A stretch of DNA of 64,000 nucleotides. Source: Microbacteriaceae bacterium (lineage in GTDB: Bacteria > Actinomycetota > Actinomycetes > Actinomycetales > Microbacteriaceae). Below the pieces are notes generated by a model. It had not been told where the DNA came from and ran no database searches. It saw nothing but the letters and a program-made list of their open reading frames with translations. Shown one piece after another: positions 28,359-53,172 of this stretch; the first letter of the stretch is position 1; every line of letters starts with the position of its first letter. The position numbers and the translations under genes were made by a program. Location of the stretch: NCBI GenBank assembly GCA_024639935.1, contig JAHEFZ010000007.1, forward strand, positions 1 to 64,000, written 5' to 3'.

Positions 28359-28466
28359 CACCTGTTCCTGCAGACAAATCGCCAAAAAGTTGAGCTAGCG
28401 CGGATTTTTGCCCAAATGTCTGCAGGAACAGGTGGGGTGGGGTGTGAATGTCTGCAGGAACAGGTG
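28359..28466. repeat. Palindromic repeat, copy A (with a duplicated right arm)
   Basis: An 18-bp perfect inverted repeat, CACCTGTTCCTGCAGACA (28359-28376) and its complement (28417-28434), encloses a 40-bp spacer with GCTAGC exactly at its centre (28394-28399). A second copy of the right arm follows at 28449-28466, giving a direct repeat of 32-bp period. The flank outside the right arm is G-rich (GGGGTGGGG). It fills most of the ispG-proS gap. Copies B (51966-52061) and C (53026-53101) have the same geometry. Confidence 0.88.
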
Positions 28467-47319: not shown

Positions 47320-49572
47320 ATGGAAGGTCCTGAAATCAAGTTCGCCGAGGCCGTTATCGATAACGGCAAGTTCGGCAAGCGCACAATTCGATTCGAAGCG
47401 GGACGACTTGCGCAACAAGCGCAGGGTGCCGTCGCCGCGTATCTCGATGACGAAACCATGCTTCTCAGCGCCACGAGCGCGAGCAAGCAGCCCCGAGAAG
47501 GATTCGACTTCTTCCCGCTCACCGTCGACGTCGAAGAGCGTTCCTACGCCGCCGGCAAGATTCCCGGATCGTTCTTCCGCCGTGAAGGACGTCCCTCGAC
47601 TGAAGCAATCTTGGTGTGTCGACTCATCGACCGCCCGTTGCGTCCGTCGTTCGTCAACGGCCTTCGCAACGAGGTTCAGATTGTCATCACCGTGCTGTCG
47701 ATTGCGCCCGGTGAGTTCTATGACGCTCTCGCCATCAACGCCGCCAGCGCTTCGACCCAGATCTCGGGACTCCCGTTCTCTGGTCCGATCGCCGGTGTCC
47801 GCATGGTCCTCATCGACGGCAACTGGGTTGCCTTCCCCACTGTTGACCAGGTCGCACTCGCCGTCTTCGACATCGTCGTCGCCGGTCGAGTCGTCAAGGG
47901 CAAGGATGGCAAGGACGACGTCGCGATCATGATGGTCGAGGCGGAAGCCACCGAAGGATCGTGGAACCTCATTCAGGCCGGCGGAACCAAGCCCGACGAA
48001 GACATCGTCTCGCAGGGTCTCGAAGCGTCGAAGCCCCACATTATGGAACTCGTTCGCGCCCAAGAGGAACTGGCCAAGCAAGCAGCGAAAGAAATCCAGC
48101 CGTACCCCGTGTTCTCGGACTACACCGACGAGGTGTTCACCGCAGTGTTGAACGTGGCGCTCAAGGACCTCGAGACCGTCTACCAGATTGCGGACAAGGT
48201 CGCGCGTCAGAAAGCGGACGACGAACTGAAAGACAAAGCCAAGGTGGAAATCGCCTCGCAGGTTGAGTCGGGCAAACTGCCGGCCGATGCGATCGCGCAG
48301 GTTTCGGCCGCGTACAAGTCGGTCACGAAGAAGGTCGTTCGTGGCCGCATCCTCAAGGACGGCGTCCGTATCGACGGCCGTGGCATGAGCGATATTCGTG
48401 CGCTTTCCGCCGAGGTCGAGGTTCTTCCTCGCGTTCACGGCTCGGCGTTGTTCGAGCGCGGCGAGACCCAGATCTTGGGTATCACCACCCTCAACATGCT
48501 CAAGATGGAGCAGCAGATCGATTCGCTCAGCCCGATCACGAGCAAGCGCTACATGCACCACTACAACTTCCCGCCCTACTCGACCGGTGAAACGGGACGA
48601 GTTGGTTCGCCGAAGCGACGCGAAATCGGGCACGGCTTCCTTGCCGAGCGCGCACTCGTTCCGGTACTGCCGACCCGCGAGGAATTCCCTTACGCAATCC
48701 GTCAGGTTTCCGAGGCCCTCGGGTCGAACGGCTCCACCTCGATGGGGTCGGTGTGTGCGTCGACATTGTCTCTGCTCAATGCCGGTGTGCCGCTTCGCGC
48801 ACCCGTTGCCGGAATCGCCATGGGTCTCGTCTCAGACGAGGTCGACGGTGAAACTCGATACGCCGCACTGACCGACATCCTCGGCGCAGAAGACGCTCTG
48901 GGTGACATGGACTTCAAGGTCGCCGGAACGAAGGACTTCATCACCGCGATTCAGCTCGACACCAAGCTCGACGGTATCCCGGCATCAGTTCTTACCAGCG
49001 CGTTGACCCAGGCCAAGGCTGCTCGACTCGCAATCCTCGACGTCATCAACGAGGCCATCGACGGACCCGACGAAATGGCACCGACCGCGCCCCGCGTGAT
49101 CTCGGTCCAGATCCCGGTCGACAAGATCGGTGAACTCATCGGACCGAAGGGCAAGACGATCAACTCCATTCAGGACGAGACCGGCGCCCAGATTTCGATC
49201 GAAGAAGACGGAACCGTCTACATCGGATCGAACGACGGCCCGTCCGCCGAAGCGGCGCGTGACCGAGTCAACCAGATCGCGAACCCCATCAACCCCGAGG
49301 TCGGCGAACAGTTCCTCGGAACCGTCGTCAAGATCGCGGCGTTCGGTGCGTTCGTGTCGCTCATGCCCGGCAAAGACGGACTGCTGCACATCTCCGAGCT
49401 GCGCAAGCTCTCGGGCGGCAAGCGCGTCGAGAACGCGGAAGACGTGCTCTCGGTCGGACAAAAGGTCCTCGTCGAAATCGCCAAGATCGATGACCGCGGC
49501 AAGCTCTCGCTTGTTCCCGTCGTCGAAGGCGAAGACGGCGGCTCGGATGCGGCTGCGGCCGACACCGAATAA
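47320..49572 (+). CDS. pnp: Polyribonucleotide nucleotidyltransferase (PNPase)
   Basis: 3'-5' phosphorolytic exoribonuclease. The 750 residues have two RNase PH domains (about 10-145 and 330-560, with [14 protein letters not shown] and [18 protein letters not shown] in parts), a KH domain ([21 protein letters not shown]) and a C-terminal S1 domain ([20 protein letters not shown]). I choose ATG 47320, which has AGGAG ahead and gives the usual [12 protein letters not shown] start; ATG 47296 would place that ribosome site inside the gene. Confidence 0.97.
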
Positions 49573-49587
49573 CGCTACACAAAAGGC

Positions 49588-49620
49588 GGGGGCGGGCGTC
49601 GGCTCGTCCCCACTTTTTTT
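49588..49620 (+). terminator. Terminator after pnp (left twin of the rhodopsin pair)
   Basis: A 10-bp stem (49588-49597 with 49602-49611, two G-T pairs) closes a GTCG loop and is followed by seven T. The stem and loop are almost identical to the terminator after the rhodopsin gene at 50558. Confidence 0.9.
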
Positions 49621-49632
49621 GGTGTTTCGGGG

Positions 49633-49755: not shown

Positions 49756-50541
49756 GTGAACACGCTGTCCGGTCTTTTAGACAACACCCAATTCAATTTG
49801 GTGTACAACATGTTCTCGCTGGGTATCGCGAGCATGCTGTTCACCTCGATTTTCCTCTTCATCGCACGTGAGCGCGTTGCAACTCGTTACCGCATGGCGG
49901 TCATGGTTTCAGCAACCGTTACGTCGATCGCTGCGTACCACTACTTCCGCATGTTTGACTCGTTCAACCACGCGTTTGCAGGGATGGCAGAGAACAACTC
50001 GGACGCCTACAACGTCGGCTACCGCTACGTTGACTGGCTCCTCACCGTTCCGCTCCTCTTGGTCGAAACCGTTGCCGTTCTTGGTTTGGCACGTATGCTC
50101 CAGCGTTCGCTCTTGAACCGCTTGGTGCCTGCAGCAGCAGCCATGATCCTGCTCGGATACCCCGGAGACGCAAAGATCGACCTCTTCGGTTGGGGTGCAG
50201 AAGTATGGTTGGTCCTCTCGACCATTCCGTTCCTATACATCCTGTTTGTCCTGTTCGTCGAACTCGGCAAGAGCCTCGCAAAGCAGTCCGCGGATGTGCG
50301 CAAGAAGGTTTCACTTCTTCGCCTCCTCCTCCTTGCGACGTGGGGCGTTTACCCCATCACGTACATCCTTGGCATGAGCGCCGACAGCTTCGACCCGTCG
50401 GCATTCGTTGCACGTGAGGTCGGATACACCATCGCGGACATCCTCGCGAAGTGTCTCTTCGGTCTCATGATCTTCTCGATTGCTCGTATCAAATCGGCAG
50501 AAGACGACAAGGAATTCGCAAAGTCGGAATTCCGCGACTAA
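49756..50541 (+). CDS. Proton-pumping rhodopsin (actinorhodopsin-like)
   Basis: A 261-residue seven-helix retinal protein that exports protons in light. The key residues are Asp93, Thr97 and Glu104 (the DTE pump motif in RYVDWLLTVPLLLVE), His62 (counter-ion partner) and the retinal Lys232 (ADILAKCLFG). Leu101 sits at the spectral-tuning site and predicts green absorption. The start is GTG 49756 with GAAAGG ahead. No carotenoid or retinal-cleaving gene is next to it, so retinal must come from elsewhere. Terminators on both sides make it a single-gene unit. Confidence 0.95.
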   Translation: MNTLSGLLDNTQFNLVYNMFSLGIASMLFTSIFLFIARERVATRYRMAVMVSATVTSIAAYHYFRMFDSFNHAFAGMAENNSDAYNVGYRYVDWLLTVPLLLVETVAVLGLARMLQRSLLNRLVPAAAAMILLGYPGDAKIDLFGWGAEVWLVLSTIPFLYILFVLFVELGKSLAKQSADVRKKVSLLRLLLLATWGVYPITYILGMSADSFDPSAFVAREVGYTIADILAKCLFGLMIFSIARIKSAEDDKEFAKSEFRD

Positions 50542-50557
50542 AAGTTGCACTGAAAGC

Positions 50558-50586
50558 GGGGGCGGGCTTCGGCTCGTCCCCGTTTT
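50558..50586 (+). terminator. Terminator after the rhodopsin gene (right twin)
   Basis: The stem 50558-50567 with 50572-50581 closes a TTCG tetraloop and is followed by GTTTTC. It matches the pnp terminator almost base for base across the stem. Confidence 0.88.
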
Positions 50587-50618
50587 CATTGTGCCGCGCT
50601 GTGTAGGCTCAAAGTCTC

Positions 50619-51935
50619 ATGGCACACGTCGAACTTCCGCTTTCCGCACCATCCGTTTCATTCACGTCGACTGGCGACTGCGAGGTCCGCCGTACTGTTC
50701 ATTCGAGCGGCCTGCGCGTGCTCACCGAACGCGTGCCGGGGTCTCGGTCAGTGACCATCGGATTTTGGATCGGCGCGGGCTCGCGTGACGAGGACGCAGG
50801 GCACCACGGGTCGACCCACTTCCTCGAACACCTCTTGTTCAAGGGAACGAGCACGCGCGGCGCGTTCGAGATTTCCGAAACCTTCGACGCGATGGGCGCG
50901 TTTCACAACGCCTTGACCGCGAAAGAGAGCACGTGTTATCTCGCGCGCGTGCGATCGAAGGATTTAGCCGTCGCTGTGCGCGTTTTGGGGGACCAGGTGT
51001 CGAACTCGCTCCTTCGTCCCGACGACTTCGAGATGGAACGCACCGTGATTTTGGAAGAGTTGGCCATGGCGGCCGACGATCCGGATGACGTGTGTGCGGA
51101 ACAGTTCTTCACCGCGATCTTTGGAGACTCTCCCCTCGCACGTCCCATCGGAGGAACGGTTGCGGACATCGAGGGGGCACAGCGCGACTCGGTCGTCGAG
51201 CACTACGCGGATCGATACCAACCGCGCGATCTGATTGTCACGGCGGCGGGCGATGTCCCACACGACGAGCTGGTCGCAATGGTTCTGGATTCGCTCGTGG
51301 GTTGGACACTCGACGAGGGTGAGCCCGAAGCGCGCCGCCCGCAAACGGAAGTCGCAATCGCGCAACGACGCGACGTCCTTGTAACTCATCGACCACTAGA
51401 GCAAGTTGTCATCATGATGGGCATTCCCGGGGTTGTTGCAAGCGATCCGCGCCGCAACGACCTCAATGTCTTGACGTCGATTTTGGGCGGAGGCTCGTCG
51501 TCACGATTGTTCCAAGAAATTCGCGAAAAGCGCGGGCTCGCCTACTCGGTCGACGCGTTCCCCGTAATGTATTCCGACGCCGGTGCTGTGGGTATCGCGG
51601 CGGGGTGCGCGCCACACGCGGTATCAGAGGTCGCGAAATTGATGCGCGACGGACTCGAGTCGATGGCGTCGGTCACCGACGCCGAGATGAGCCGGGCTCG
51701 GGGCCAAATCCTCGGGTCGTCGACCCTGTCCCTCGAATCGATGGACTCGCGCATGAACCGTCTGGCGCGATCGGAGTTCCTTGGTGAATATCGTGACCTC
51801 GACGAGGCCGAGCGCCTGCTTAACGCCGTCTCGAGCGAATCCGTTACCGCGCTTGCCCGCACACTCATCGCCGAACCGATGAGCATCTCGGCGGTCGGGG
51901 ACATCTCGCCCGACACTTTTGCTTTCCTGAGCTAG
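50619..51935 (+). CDS. M16 family zinc peptidase (PepR/processing-peptidase type)
   Basis: A 438-residue peptidase of the mitochondrial-processing-peptidase type. The inverted zinc motif H-x-x-E-H is in STHFLEHLLFKGT, with the third Glu about 75 residues on in VILEELAMA. The second, inactive half follows. Place directly after pnp is conserved in actinobacteria (pepR in mycobacteria). TAGGCT lies nine bases before the ATG. Confidence 0.93.
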   Translation: MAHVELPLSAPSVSFTSTGDCEVRRTVHSSGLRVLTERVPGSRSVTIGFWIGAGSRDEDAGHHGSTHFLEHLLFKGTSTRGAFEISETFDAMGAFHNALTAKESTCYLARVRSKDLAVAVRVLGDQVSNSLLRPDDFEMERTVILEELAMAADDPDDVCAEQFFTAIFGDSPLARPIGGTVADIEGAQRDSVVEHYADRYQPRDLIVTAAGDVPHDELVAMVLDSLVGWTLDEGEPEARRPQTEVAIAQRRDVLVTHRPLEQVVIMMGIPGVVASDPRRNDLNVLTSILGGGSSSRLFQEIREKRGLAYSVDAFPVMYSDAGAVGIAAGCAPHAVSEVAKLMRDGLESMASVTDAEMSRARGQILGSSTLSLESMDSRMNRLARSEFLGEYRDLDEAERLLNAVSSESVTALARTLIAEPMSISAVGDISPDTFAFLS

Positions 51936-51965: not shown

Positions 51966-52061
51966 CACCTGTTTCTGCAGACAAATCGCCCTCTCCCACC
52001 TGTTTCTGCAGACAAATCGAAGAATTCGGACGCTAGCGCGCGGTTTTTGAAAAATGTCTGC
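51966..52061. repeat. Palindromic repeat, copy B (tandem left arm, damaged right arm)
   Basis: The left arm CACCTGTTTCTGCAGACA occurs twice (51966-51983 and 51997-52014) as a 31-bp tandem duplication. A 40-bp spacer follows with GCTAGC at its centre (52032-52037), then a right arm that matches only over TGTCTGC (52055-52061) before it diverges. It lies 113 bp upstream of the DUF559 gene. Confidence 0.85.
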
Positions 52062-52173
52062 GTAATCAATCGAATCTGGCACCAAATTGTCCCAAGGTGC
52101 TGGGTATTCGGGATGACTCACTAAATCGCCGTCTACAGGAGAGAACCAGCCACGCAAATCTGAGAATAAACGA

Positions 52174-52998
52174 GTGGATCTGAACACTGCCCTCAGGAAA
52201 CTCGGTGGCGTTGCGAAGTTGAGCGAACTAAAGCGTCGCGGGGTAACCGTCGGACAGGTCGAGGCGGCTCTGGCCCGGTGTGAGGTTCTCCGCTTGCGCA
52301 AAGGTTGGTATTCGCTGACGCACATTTCGCCCATTGCGAAAAGAGCAATCATCGATCGAGGCCTTCTGACGTGCGTGAGCGCTGCGAGCGAATTGGGTTG
52401 GCCTTATCAACGAATGGAATATCACCTGCGTGCGCCACGTCCCGTTGAGGGCGTCCGGACTTCATGTCGCCGCATTGCGCCATCCAGGGCTGGGGCGAAC
52501 GTTGGGCCAATCGATGTGATTGAGGACTATCTGCACTGTCAGCCTCCCGCATGGAGTCTCGCGCTCGTTGACTTTCTTACTCGTCAACAAGGCCTGTCGG
52601 AATCGCAGTGGAGAGAACTCGAATCGCGGGTTCCTCAAAACCAACGCCAAATTCTCAATCTGAGGTCCGGTGTTCCCGAGAGTCCTCTCGAATCCGTTTT
52701 CCGCTACACATTGATAAAGACGCGCTTGAGGCACGAGATGCAGGTGAAAATTGGACGCTATCGCGTCGACTTTTTAATCAATGGCAAATTGGTCGTGGAA
52801 ACTCATGGTGCTGAATTTCACGCCTCGCATCATGCGTGGGAGAAGGATCGCGAACGGGTTTTGTGGCTCCGCAGTCAAGGTTGGGATGTGATCGAACTGA
52901 CTTTTAAACAAGTTGAGGACTGGGGCGGCTTGGAACGATTGATTCGGAATGCACTGAAGAATCCCCGCTACCGCACTCGTTCGTTTGTGGGGCCATGA
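52174..52998 (+). CDS. AbiEi-like/DUF559 (Vsr-type nuclease fold) protein
   Basis: A 274-residue two-domain protein. Residues 1-50 form a winged-helix of the AbiEi antitoxin type (LRKLGGVAKLSELKRRGVT, then LRLRKGWYSL). Residues 168-245 are a DUF559 domain, a relative of Vsr endonuclease: Glu173 (SPLES), Asp199 (VDFLI) and Glu209 (LVVETHG), where the usual E-x-D-G has His for Asp. Many paralogues exist in actinobacteria, without a known role. Palindromic repeats B and C lie on either side, and no toxin gene is adjacent. The start is GTG with only a weak ribosome site. Confidence 0.85.
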   Translation: MDLNTALRKLGGVAKLSELKRRGVTVGQVEAALARCEVLRLRKGWYSLTHISPIAKRAIIDRGLLTCVSAASELGWPYQRMEYHLRAPRPVEGVRTSCRRIAPSRAGANVGPIDVIEDYLHCQPPAWSLALVDFLTRQQGLSESQWRELESRVPQNQRQILNLRSGVPESPLESVFRYTLIKTRLRHEMQVKIGRYRVDFLINGKLVVETHGAEFHASHHAWEKDRERVLWLRSQGWDVIELTFKQVEDWGGLERLIRNALKNPRYRTRSFVGP

Positions 52999-53025
52999 GC
53001 TCTCGTTCGCGTGCGCGGTTCCCAA

Positions 53026-53101
53026 CTCTCGTTTCTGCAGACATGTTCAGGAAAAGTCGTGCTAGCAGCGGAAAATCCAGAGATGTCTGCAGGAACAGGT
53101 G
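53026..53101. repeat. Palindromic repeat, copy C
   Basis: The left arm (53026-53043, matching over GTTTCTGCAGACA) and the perfect right arm TGTCTGCAGGAACAGGTG (53084-53101) enclose a 40-bp spacer with GCTAGC at its exact centre (53061-53066). It begins 28 bp after the DUF559 stop. The G-rich flank outside the right arm extends into a long G run. Confidence 0.87.
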
Positions 53102-53121
53102 GGGTGGGGTGGGGTGGGGGG
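53101..53121 (+). repeat. G-quadruplex-type GGGGT tract
   Basis: Four runs of four or more G separated by single T bases directly continue the right arm of repeat C, followed by a further purine-rich stretch up to about 53150. This satisfies the strictest G-quadruplex pattern. It lies about 65-85 bp upstream of the next gene on the coding strand. Confidence 0.8.
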
Positions 53122-53172
53122 AGATGGAGGGAGGGGCGAGGGGGGATGGCGCGTGTGGGTACGGCGCGAGAA

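Follow-up and report, generated by a model that had tools for sequence, protein, structure and literature searches.

REP elements and their RAYT proteins are the standard example of dispersed palindromes to which a domesticated enzyme is tied. In these REPtrons the gene is flanked by its own inverted repeats, with one repeat family for each gene and several families in a genome; the elements are dispersed in intergenic DNA and can persist without the gene, and REPINs have invariant ends of about 16 bp around a less conserved spacer, which measures 71 bp in P. fluorescens (PMC3116915, PMC6006769, PMC8049555). A second related system is the AbiEi antitoxin of type IV toxin-antitoxin systems, of which two monomers bind two 23-bp inverted repeats cooperatively and bend the DNA (PMC7319586).

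We analysed a stretch of 64,000 nucleotides (hereafter the window) of contig C14 from a draft Microbacteriaceae genome (G000, 1.31 Mb). We identified in it a nuclease gene lying between two inverted-repeat elements, a cassette that looks like an undescribed counterpart of REP/RAYT in many Actinomycetota. The literature that we covered, mainly open papers, with subscription papers and preprints largely outside its scope, contained no description of DUF559 proteins with repeats, palindromes or mobility.

A nuclease gene between two inverted-repeat elements

The initial annotation had placed the gene inside a cassette, 113 bp after one copy of a palindrome (B) and 28 bp before another (C); these distances are correct to a few bases (Table 1). 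Element B is worn: its left arm is duplicated (TGTTTCTGCAGACA, tandem period 31 bp), its right arm has decayed (TGTCTGCGTAATCA), and its interior has a central GCTAGC. We counted about six sites with the window arm, TGTTYCTGCAGACA, in its own genome, nearly every one having an inverted partner; a further element lies just beyond the window (C14:67843-67994). The repeat exceeds chance: genome-wide, we counted 17 + 16 matches with up to two mismatches and 12 + 7 with up to one, versus 7 + 8 and 0 + 0 for the reversed pattern.

Table 1. Positions of the cassette, its elements and its marker gene in the window.
Feature	Position	Strand	Remarks
AbiEi-DUF559 gene	52174..52998	+	GTG start 52174, stop 52998, 274 aa
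Element B	51966..52068		left arm 51970-51983, tandem second left arm 52001-52014, decayed right arm 52055-52068
Element C	53026..53103		left arm 53030-53043, right arm TGTCTGCAGGAACA 53084-53097
G-rich low-complexity tract	53098..53152	+	outward of element C right arm; missing from relatives' empty sites
Element A, ispG-proS gap	28359..28466		arms 28363-28376 and 28417-28430, extra right arm 28449-28462
M16 peptidase	50619..51935	+	conserved neighbour marking the cassette locus in relatives; outside the cassette

The gene is preceded by the M16 peptidase and followed by a 142-aa ORF without Pfam match and then by a glycosyltransferase; no DUF1814 toxin gene was found among these neighbours. 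Directly upstream of the M16 gene lies a bacteriorhodopsin-like gene (49756-50541; PF01036, E 3e-38), as is expected in a small-genome aquatic actinobacterium. Two 51-bp copies of a very stable hairpin, 78% identical to one another (49571-49625 and 50541-50595), each stand directly past a stop codon, of the PNPase and rhodopsin genes respectively, the first being followed by a T-run; the pair is probably a duplicated terminator.

The encoded protein has Pfam matches to DUF559 and MTES_1575, and an AbiEi_4 match was found in 17 of 26 homologues; the likeness of its own N-terminus to AbiEi is weak by sequence and clear by fold. In an AlphaFold2 model (pLDDT 91, pTM 0.85), residues 1-165 match the AbiEi antitoxin 6y8q_A (Z 9.5, rmsd 5.0, 161 residues aligned), and residues 166-266 match the Vsr class of nucleases (I-Bth0305I, 3r3p, Z 11.9; Vsr-DNA, 1cw0, Z 10.7; TnsA, 1f1z, Z 7.8), a nuclease fold with which a profile search agrees (3hrl, 1.4e-9; 3r3p, 1.5e-5). 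By this model, the protein joins an AbiEi-like DNA-binding module (1-165) to a Vsr/EDxHD-type nuclease domain (166-266), which bears out the domains that the initial annotation had assigned to it. All 79 homologues compared have the four predicted catalytic acidic residues (E173, D199, E209 and D225), H216 is near-invariant (90% or more), and dN/dS is 0.10-0.20, so that the nuclease gene is under purifying selection with its catalytic residues conserved. Homologues are nearly absent from plasmids (3 of 72,556 records), and a phage search for them gave no match; RAYTs are likewise reported to be nearly absent from plasmids (PMC8049555). Because AbiEi binds inverted repeats and bends DNA, the N-terminal module likely recognises the arms by analogy; when the correlation between arm and protein was split by protein region, the winged helix was not singled out as the specificity part.

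Bracketing and private repeat families in Actinomycetota

The association of repeat and nuclease is well supported. We examined 80 named loci from draft genomes, one per species, in Salinibacterium, Microcella, Microbacterium, Agromyces, Arthrobacter, Gordonia, Arachnia and others, a set drawn from the closer-homologue subset and biased to that clade. A common inverted repeat brackets the homologue in 63 of the 80 loci, versus 8 of 539 other genes of the same loci, by a lenient test that takes an inverted repeat of span 50-120 and one arm common to both sides of the gene; when both sides are required, in a stricter test, the counts are 40 of 80 versus 1 of 539. Flanking repeats, for which the initial annotation had proposed to test homologues across genomes, are thus the rule. 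Orthologues without repeats, which it had held would count against its reading, are a minority: 17 loci fail the lenient test, several of which still have a long repeat common to both gene sides, and no brackets were found at some homologues in mycobacteria and Gulosibacter. Any bracket is missing from the mycobacterial homologues at three loci (L101, L113, L121), which may be domesticated members of the family or ones with another organisation.

Arm sequences vary between genes, in step with the relatedness of the proteins. Homologues within the genus of the window, 40-48% identical and lying at the same site after the M16 gene, are bracketed by different sequences: CACCTGTTTTTTCACACA in G009, TTTTTGGAAACCAA in G014 and G005 (in G008 the upstream side is lost at a contig end), and CGAAAAATTACAAC in G011. 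Arm similarity grows with protein identity, from common arms in about 2% of pairs below 35% identity to six of six pairs above 80%, and the mean arm similarity observed for pairs above 40% identity was reached in none of 500 permutations. Distal arm copies within the 20-kb named loci show a modest enrichment (14, versus 3.6 expected).

Each gene owns a private element family dispersed in intergenic DNA. This is clearest in G062, of which 2.0 of 2.88 Mb were read, so that its copy numbers are lower bounds. We identified at least five paralogues in the part read, four of the five bracketed, by four different arms, and one without brackets. Family 1 (arm CCGAAATGCAGGA) forms at least 11 inverted pairs, all of exactly 83 bp, with 20 elements recovered by a pattern scan; family 2 (arm TCGGAAACTCAGGA) forms at least 17 pairs, all of 84-85 bp, and every one of its sites lies within about 112 kb of its gene, in a cluster around it. 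The other two bracket arms form few inverted pairs, and shuffled arms form none in the 2.0 Mb. These elements are intergenic in 27 of 28 cases, versus 18.6% of random windows. Similarly, the arm of G011's own gene has 65 matches in that genome versus none in 14 congeners.

The initial annotation had also proposed to test whether the repeat tracks the gene, and it largely does. The pair CGAAATGCAGGA...TCCTGCATTTCG is present in 10 of 299 family genomes, in none of which its reversed form was found, nor in any of the others; eight genomes have at least two such elements, and in seven of these, among them G203 with a truncated gene and the arm on one side only, a homologue lies next to that arm. 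None of 11 congeners without elements has a gene beside an element of that arm, one of them holding a single loose arm match on one gene side. The exceptions are G345, which has ten elements of this pair and no gene match at the cut-off, and G010, which likewise has intact elements without a detected gene. We rejected G010 as a counter-example because its sequence, like those of G002, G004 and G013, also gave no match to the M16 gene that marks the cassette locus, and the cassette gene may therefore be absent or undetected there.

Fixed arms, free interiors and exchange at fixed sites

In each element a pair of inverted arms, about 14-18 bp long, stands at a fixed distance, and additional arms in tandem are frequent. 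Arms and spacing are fixed, and the interior is free and often unrelated between copies. In G062, the arms of family 1 are exact in 22 of 23 matches, and the interiors (55-57 bp) are not palindromic and show identities between copies of 0.42 and 0.39, versus 0.34 expected by composition. At orthologous sites in the genus of the window, arms are 95% identical, interiors 68% and flanks 70%; compared with G010, the arms agree at 26-27 of 28 bases and the interiors about as well as shuffled sequence. Several interiors in this genus are semi-conserved, with a GCTAGC centre in common, and because of this centre we consider the copies there to be related by descent or copying.

The initial annotation had pictured a REP-like element with its own unrelated enzyme. 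The bracketing, the private families and the co-variation of arm and protein uphold that picture; its simple palindrome does not stand, since with a free spacer the element is not one copied whole. For G062, we rejected copy-and-paste of the whole palindrome, the interiors being unrelated between copies. As these interiors are nearly unrelated, recent copying of whole elements is not visible in that genome, and old copies maintained by selection fit equally well.

Tandem arms are spaced at 31 bp in the window and TTTTTGG families, and mostly at 42 and 52 bp, also at 31 and 63 bp, in G011; these spacings are steps of about one helical turn. Because they are helically phased, the arms are probably double-strand sites; the spacings suggest binding sites whose number and phase matter, and the element sites may be places of recurrent local DNA synthesis. 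The element could also form a hairpin via its arms, and this hairpin could be recognised as a single strand, but double-strand binding agrees better with the free interior, the tandem arms and the phasing. The G011 arrays have 42- and 52-bp units with up to five right arms consecutively (L230, 161500-172500, and other loci), and are possibly fast-evolving loci.

The sequence outward of the arms is G-rich on the outward strand, with GC skews of 0.49 and 0.16 for the G062 families and 0.22 in G011, compared with 0 (sd 0.03-0.04) at random; these tracts are missing at empty sites, and may be traces of repair or something that the element requires. Long strand-asymmetric tracts of this kind (GGGGTGGGG, GGAGAGGGGT) stand beside right arms in the window (the tract of Table 1), upstream of proS at L145 and after the gene at L013.

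We identified gains, losses and exchanges at fixed sites. The M16 locus is empty of both gene and element in three congeners (G012, G007, G001). Between G000 and G014, the M16 proteins are 94% identical and the DUF559 proteins 47%, with different brackets, and therefore gene and brackets change as a unit; by this comparison of sequences, the cassette is exchangeable at this one locus. At this locus in G009 (L010), cassette and M16 gene point in opposite directions, and the next gene is dapB-like where the usual one is a small membrane gene.

The ispG-proS gap is empty in six congeners, holds the arm family of the window in G000 and G010, the TTTTTGGAAACC family in G005, where these are also the arms of the genome's own gene, and both families in G002. 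In the nifS-mnmA gap, the two families adjoin in G012, G013 and G004, and the site is empty in the window. Two arm families directly adjoin at the same intergenic sites in several congeners (L183, L197, L161 at nifS-mnmA, L182 at ispG-proS), as if one attracted or marked a place for the other. No target-site duplication could be defined, the empty sites being too diverged.

Proposed mechanism, alternatives and known systems

That this is an independent system of repeat and nuclease we state with good confidence; that the nuclease would act on the arms, and thereby spread or maintain the elements, with moderate confidence. The reading that we favour, and consider somewhat probable, is a repeat-plus-enzyme cassette in which the AbiEi-Vsr-type protein, encoded between two cognate elements, binds and nicks the arms, and repair spreads the elements, independently of REP/RAYT. 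Through the AbiEi module, monomers would attach to the arms in the way in which AbiEi binds inverted repeats, cooperatively and with bending of the DNA, and would assemble on one DNA face; the nuclease would then nick or cut at the element, and repair of the break would duplicate arms in tandem, rarely plant new elements near the gene or elsewhere, and also let the whole cassette be exchanged. Such a system would resemble the REPtron, having arisen independently with another enzyme. The initial annotation had suggested that the enzyme nicks near the repeat and spreads or polices it, and it may do so. Weighing against this reading are the nearly unrelated interiors in G062, the failure to define a target-site duplication, the homologues without brackets, and the intact elements of G010 and G345, where no gene was detected. 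We see an even chance that it forms an independent class throughout Actinomycetota, in which AbiEi-Vsr-fold enzymes recognise helically phased arms around an arbitrary interior, and create, copy or maintain them by a double-strand-site rather than a single-strand HUH mechanism.

The main rival, which we hold possible and on balance doubtful, is a regulator or chromosome-organising factor: the elements would be host-selected binding sites, the brackets would serve autoregulation and insulation, and the nuclease would act on rare damaged or foreign DNA, without spreading. Exact arms and spacing around random interiors (as at the orthologous sites above), and helical phasing typical of cooperative binding arrays, speak for this rival, as does the known action of AbiEi as a cooperative autorepressor on inverted repeats (PMC7319586). 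A host regulon would not, however, be expected to place complete elements on both sides of the gene, to conserve catalysis so strongly, to give each paralogue a private family, to cluster elements locally around one gene, or to exchange the gene with both brackets at one locus. The regulatory or architectural role and the spreading one may both hold. Both roles at once are debated for REPINs too.

A homing-like selfish gene, of which the nuclease would cut elements or empty sites and repair from the cassette would insert gene and brackets, as for EDxHD homing endonucleases, we judge improbable. Its nearest solved fold is indeed that of a homing endonuclease, I-Bth0305I, and cassettes of different specificities occupy the same locus in congeners, but there is one gene copy for each element family with its many elements, and recognition sites intact on both gene sides mean that the cassette would keep cutting itself. 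Still less probable is a restriction or defence nuclease with the elements as self marks or decoys: AbiEi and Vsr-like domains are found in defence genes and there are weak PADLOC profile matches, but the homologues are near-absent from plasmids and without phage match, recognition of 14-18 bp arms is too long for restriction, and the window cassette has no partner gene. Finally, coincidence, with repeats and gene as unrelated passengers of permissive intergenic sites, has next to no probability even though congeners repeatedly have element sites in the same intergenic gaps, and is already contradicted by the controls, with control genes unbracketed and arms co-varying with the protein and with gene presence.

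Under the repeat-plus-enzyme reading, an unrelated enzyme with the layout of REP/RAYT, in several private versions per genome, would be an independent replicate for asking why such pairs persist, with many natural specificity variants for testing this. It would additionally suggest a possible role for a widespread uncharacterised group of DUF559 proteins, whose annotations read AbiEi-family antitoxin or hypothetical protein, and would supply many natural protein-site pairs from which DNA recognition could be learned.

Compared with known systems, the protein shares the fold of residues 1-165 with the AbiEi antitoxin, which binds inverted repeats cooperatively and bends DNA (PMC7319586), but is here fused to a nuclease, has dispersed sites rather than one operator, and in the window has no adjoining DUF1814 toxin gene. 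The nuclease domain shares its fold and invariant catalytic acidic residues with I-Bth0305I and Vsr; in contrast to EDxHD homing endonucleases, the gene is not in an intron or intein and does not interrupt its recognition site, and complete sites lie on both its sides and at many places per genome. TnsA of Tn7 shares the nuclease core fold and is a precedent for such a fold in transposition, although no transposase partner was seen here and the low score may reflect the shared core alone. Set against MITEs and insertion sequences, the elements have interiors that are unrelated in G062 and semi-conserved in the genus of the window.

The closest likeness is to the REPtron, in the gene flanked by its own inverted repeats, the private families, several to a genome, the intergenic dispersal with elements that can outlast the gene, and the conserved ends around a less conserved spacer. 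The enzyme here is an AbiEi module with a Vsr-fold nuclease, whereas that of REPtrons is a Y1 HUH transposase; we rejected a RAYT hidden elsewhere, as no Y1_Tnp (PF01797) was found in 15 genomes of the genus, with the control found in 5 of 14 genomes. On inspection, the arms lack a GTAG/CGTC foot and have no common foot, the arms are helically phased, and the interiors are unrelated in the best studied genome, G062. The cassette thus works like a REPtron in its layout, and is not one by homology.
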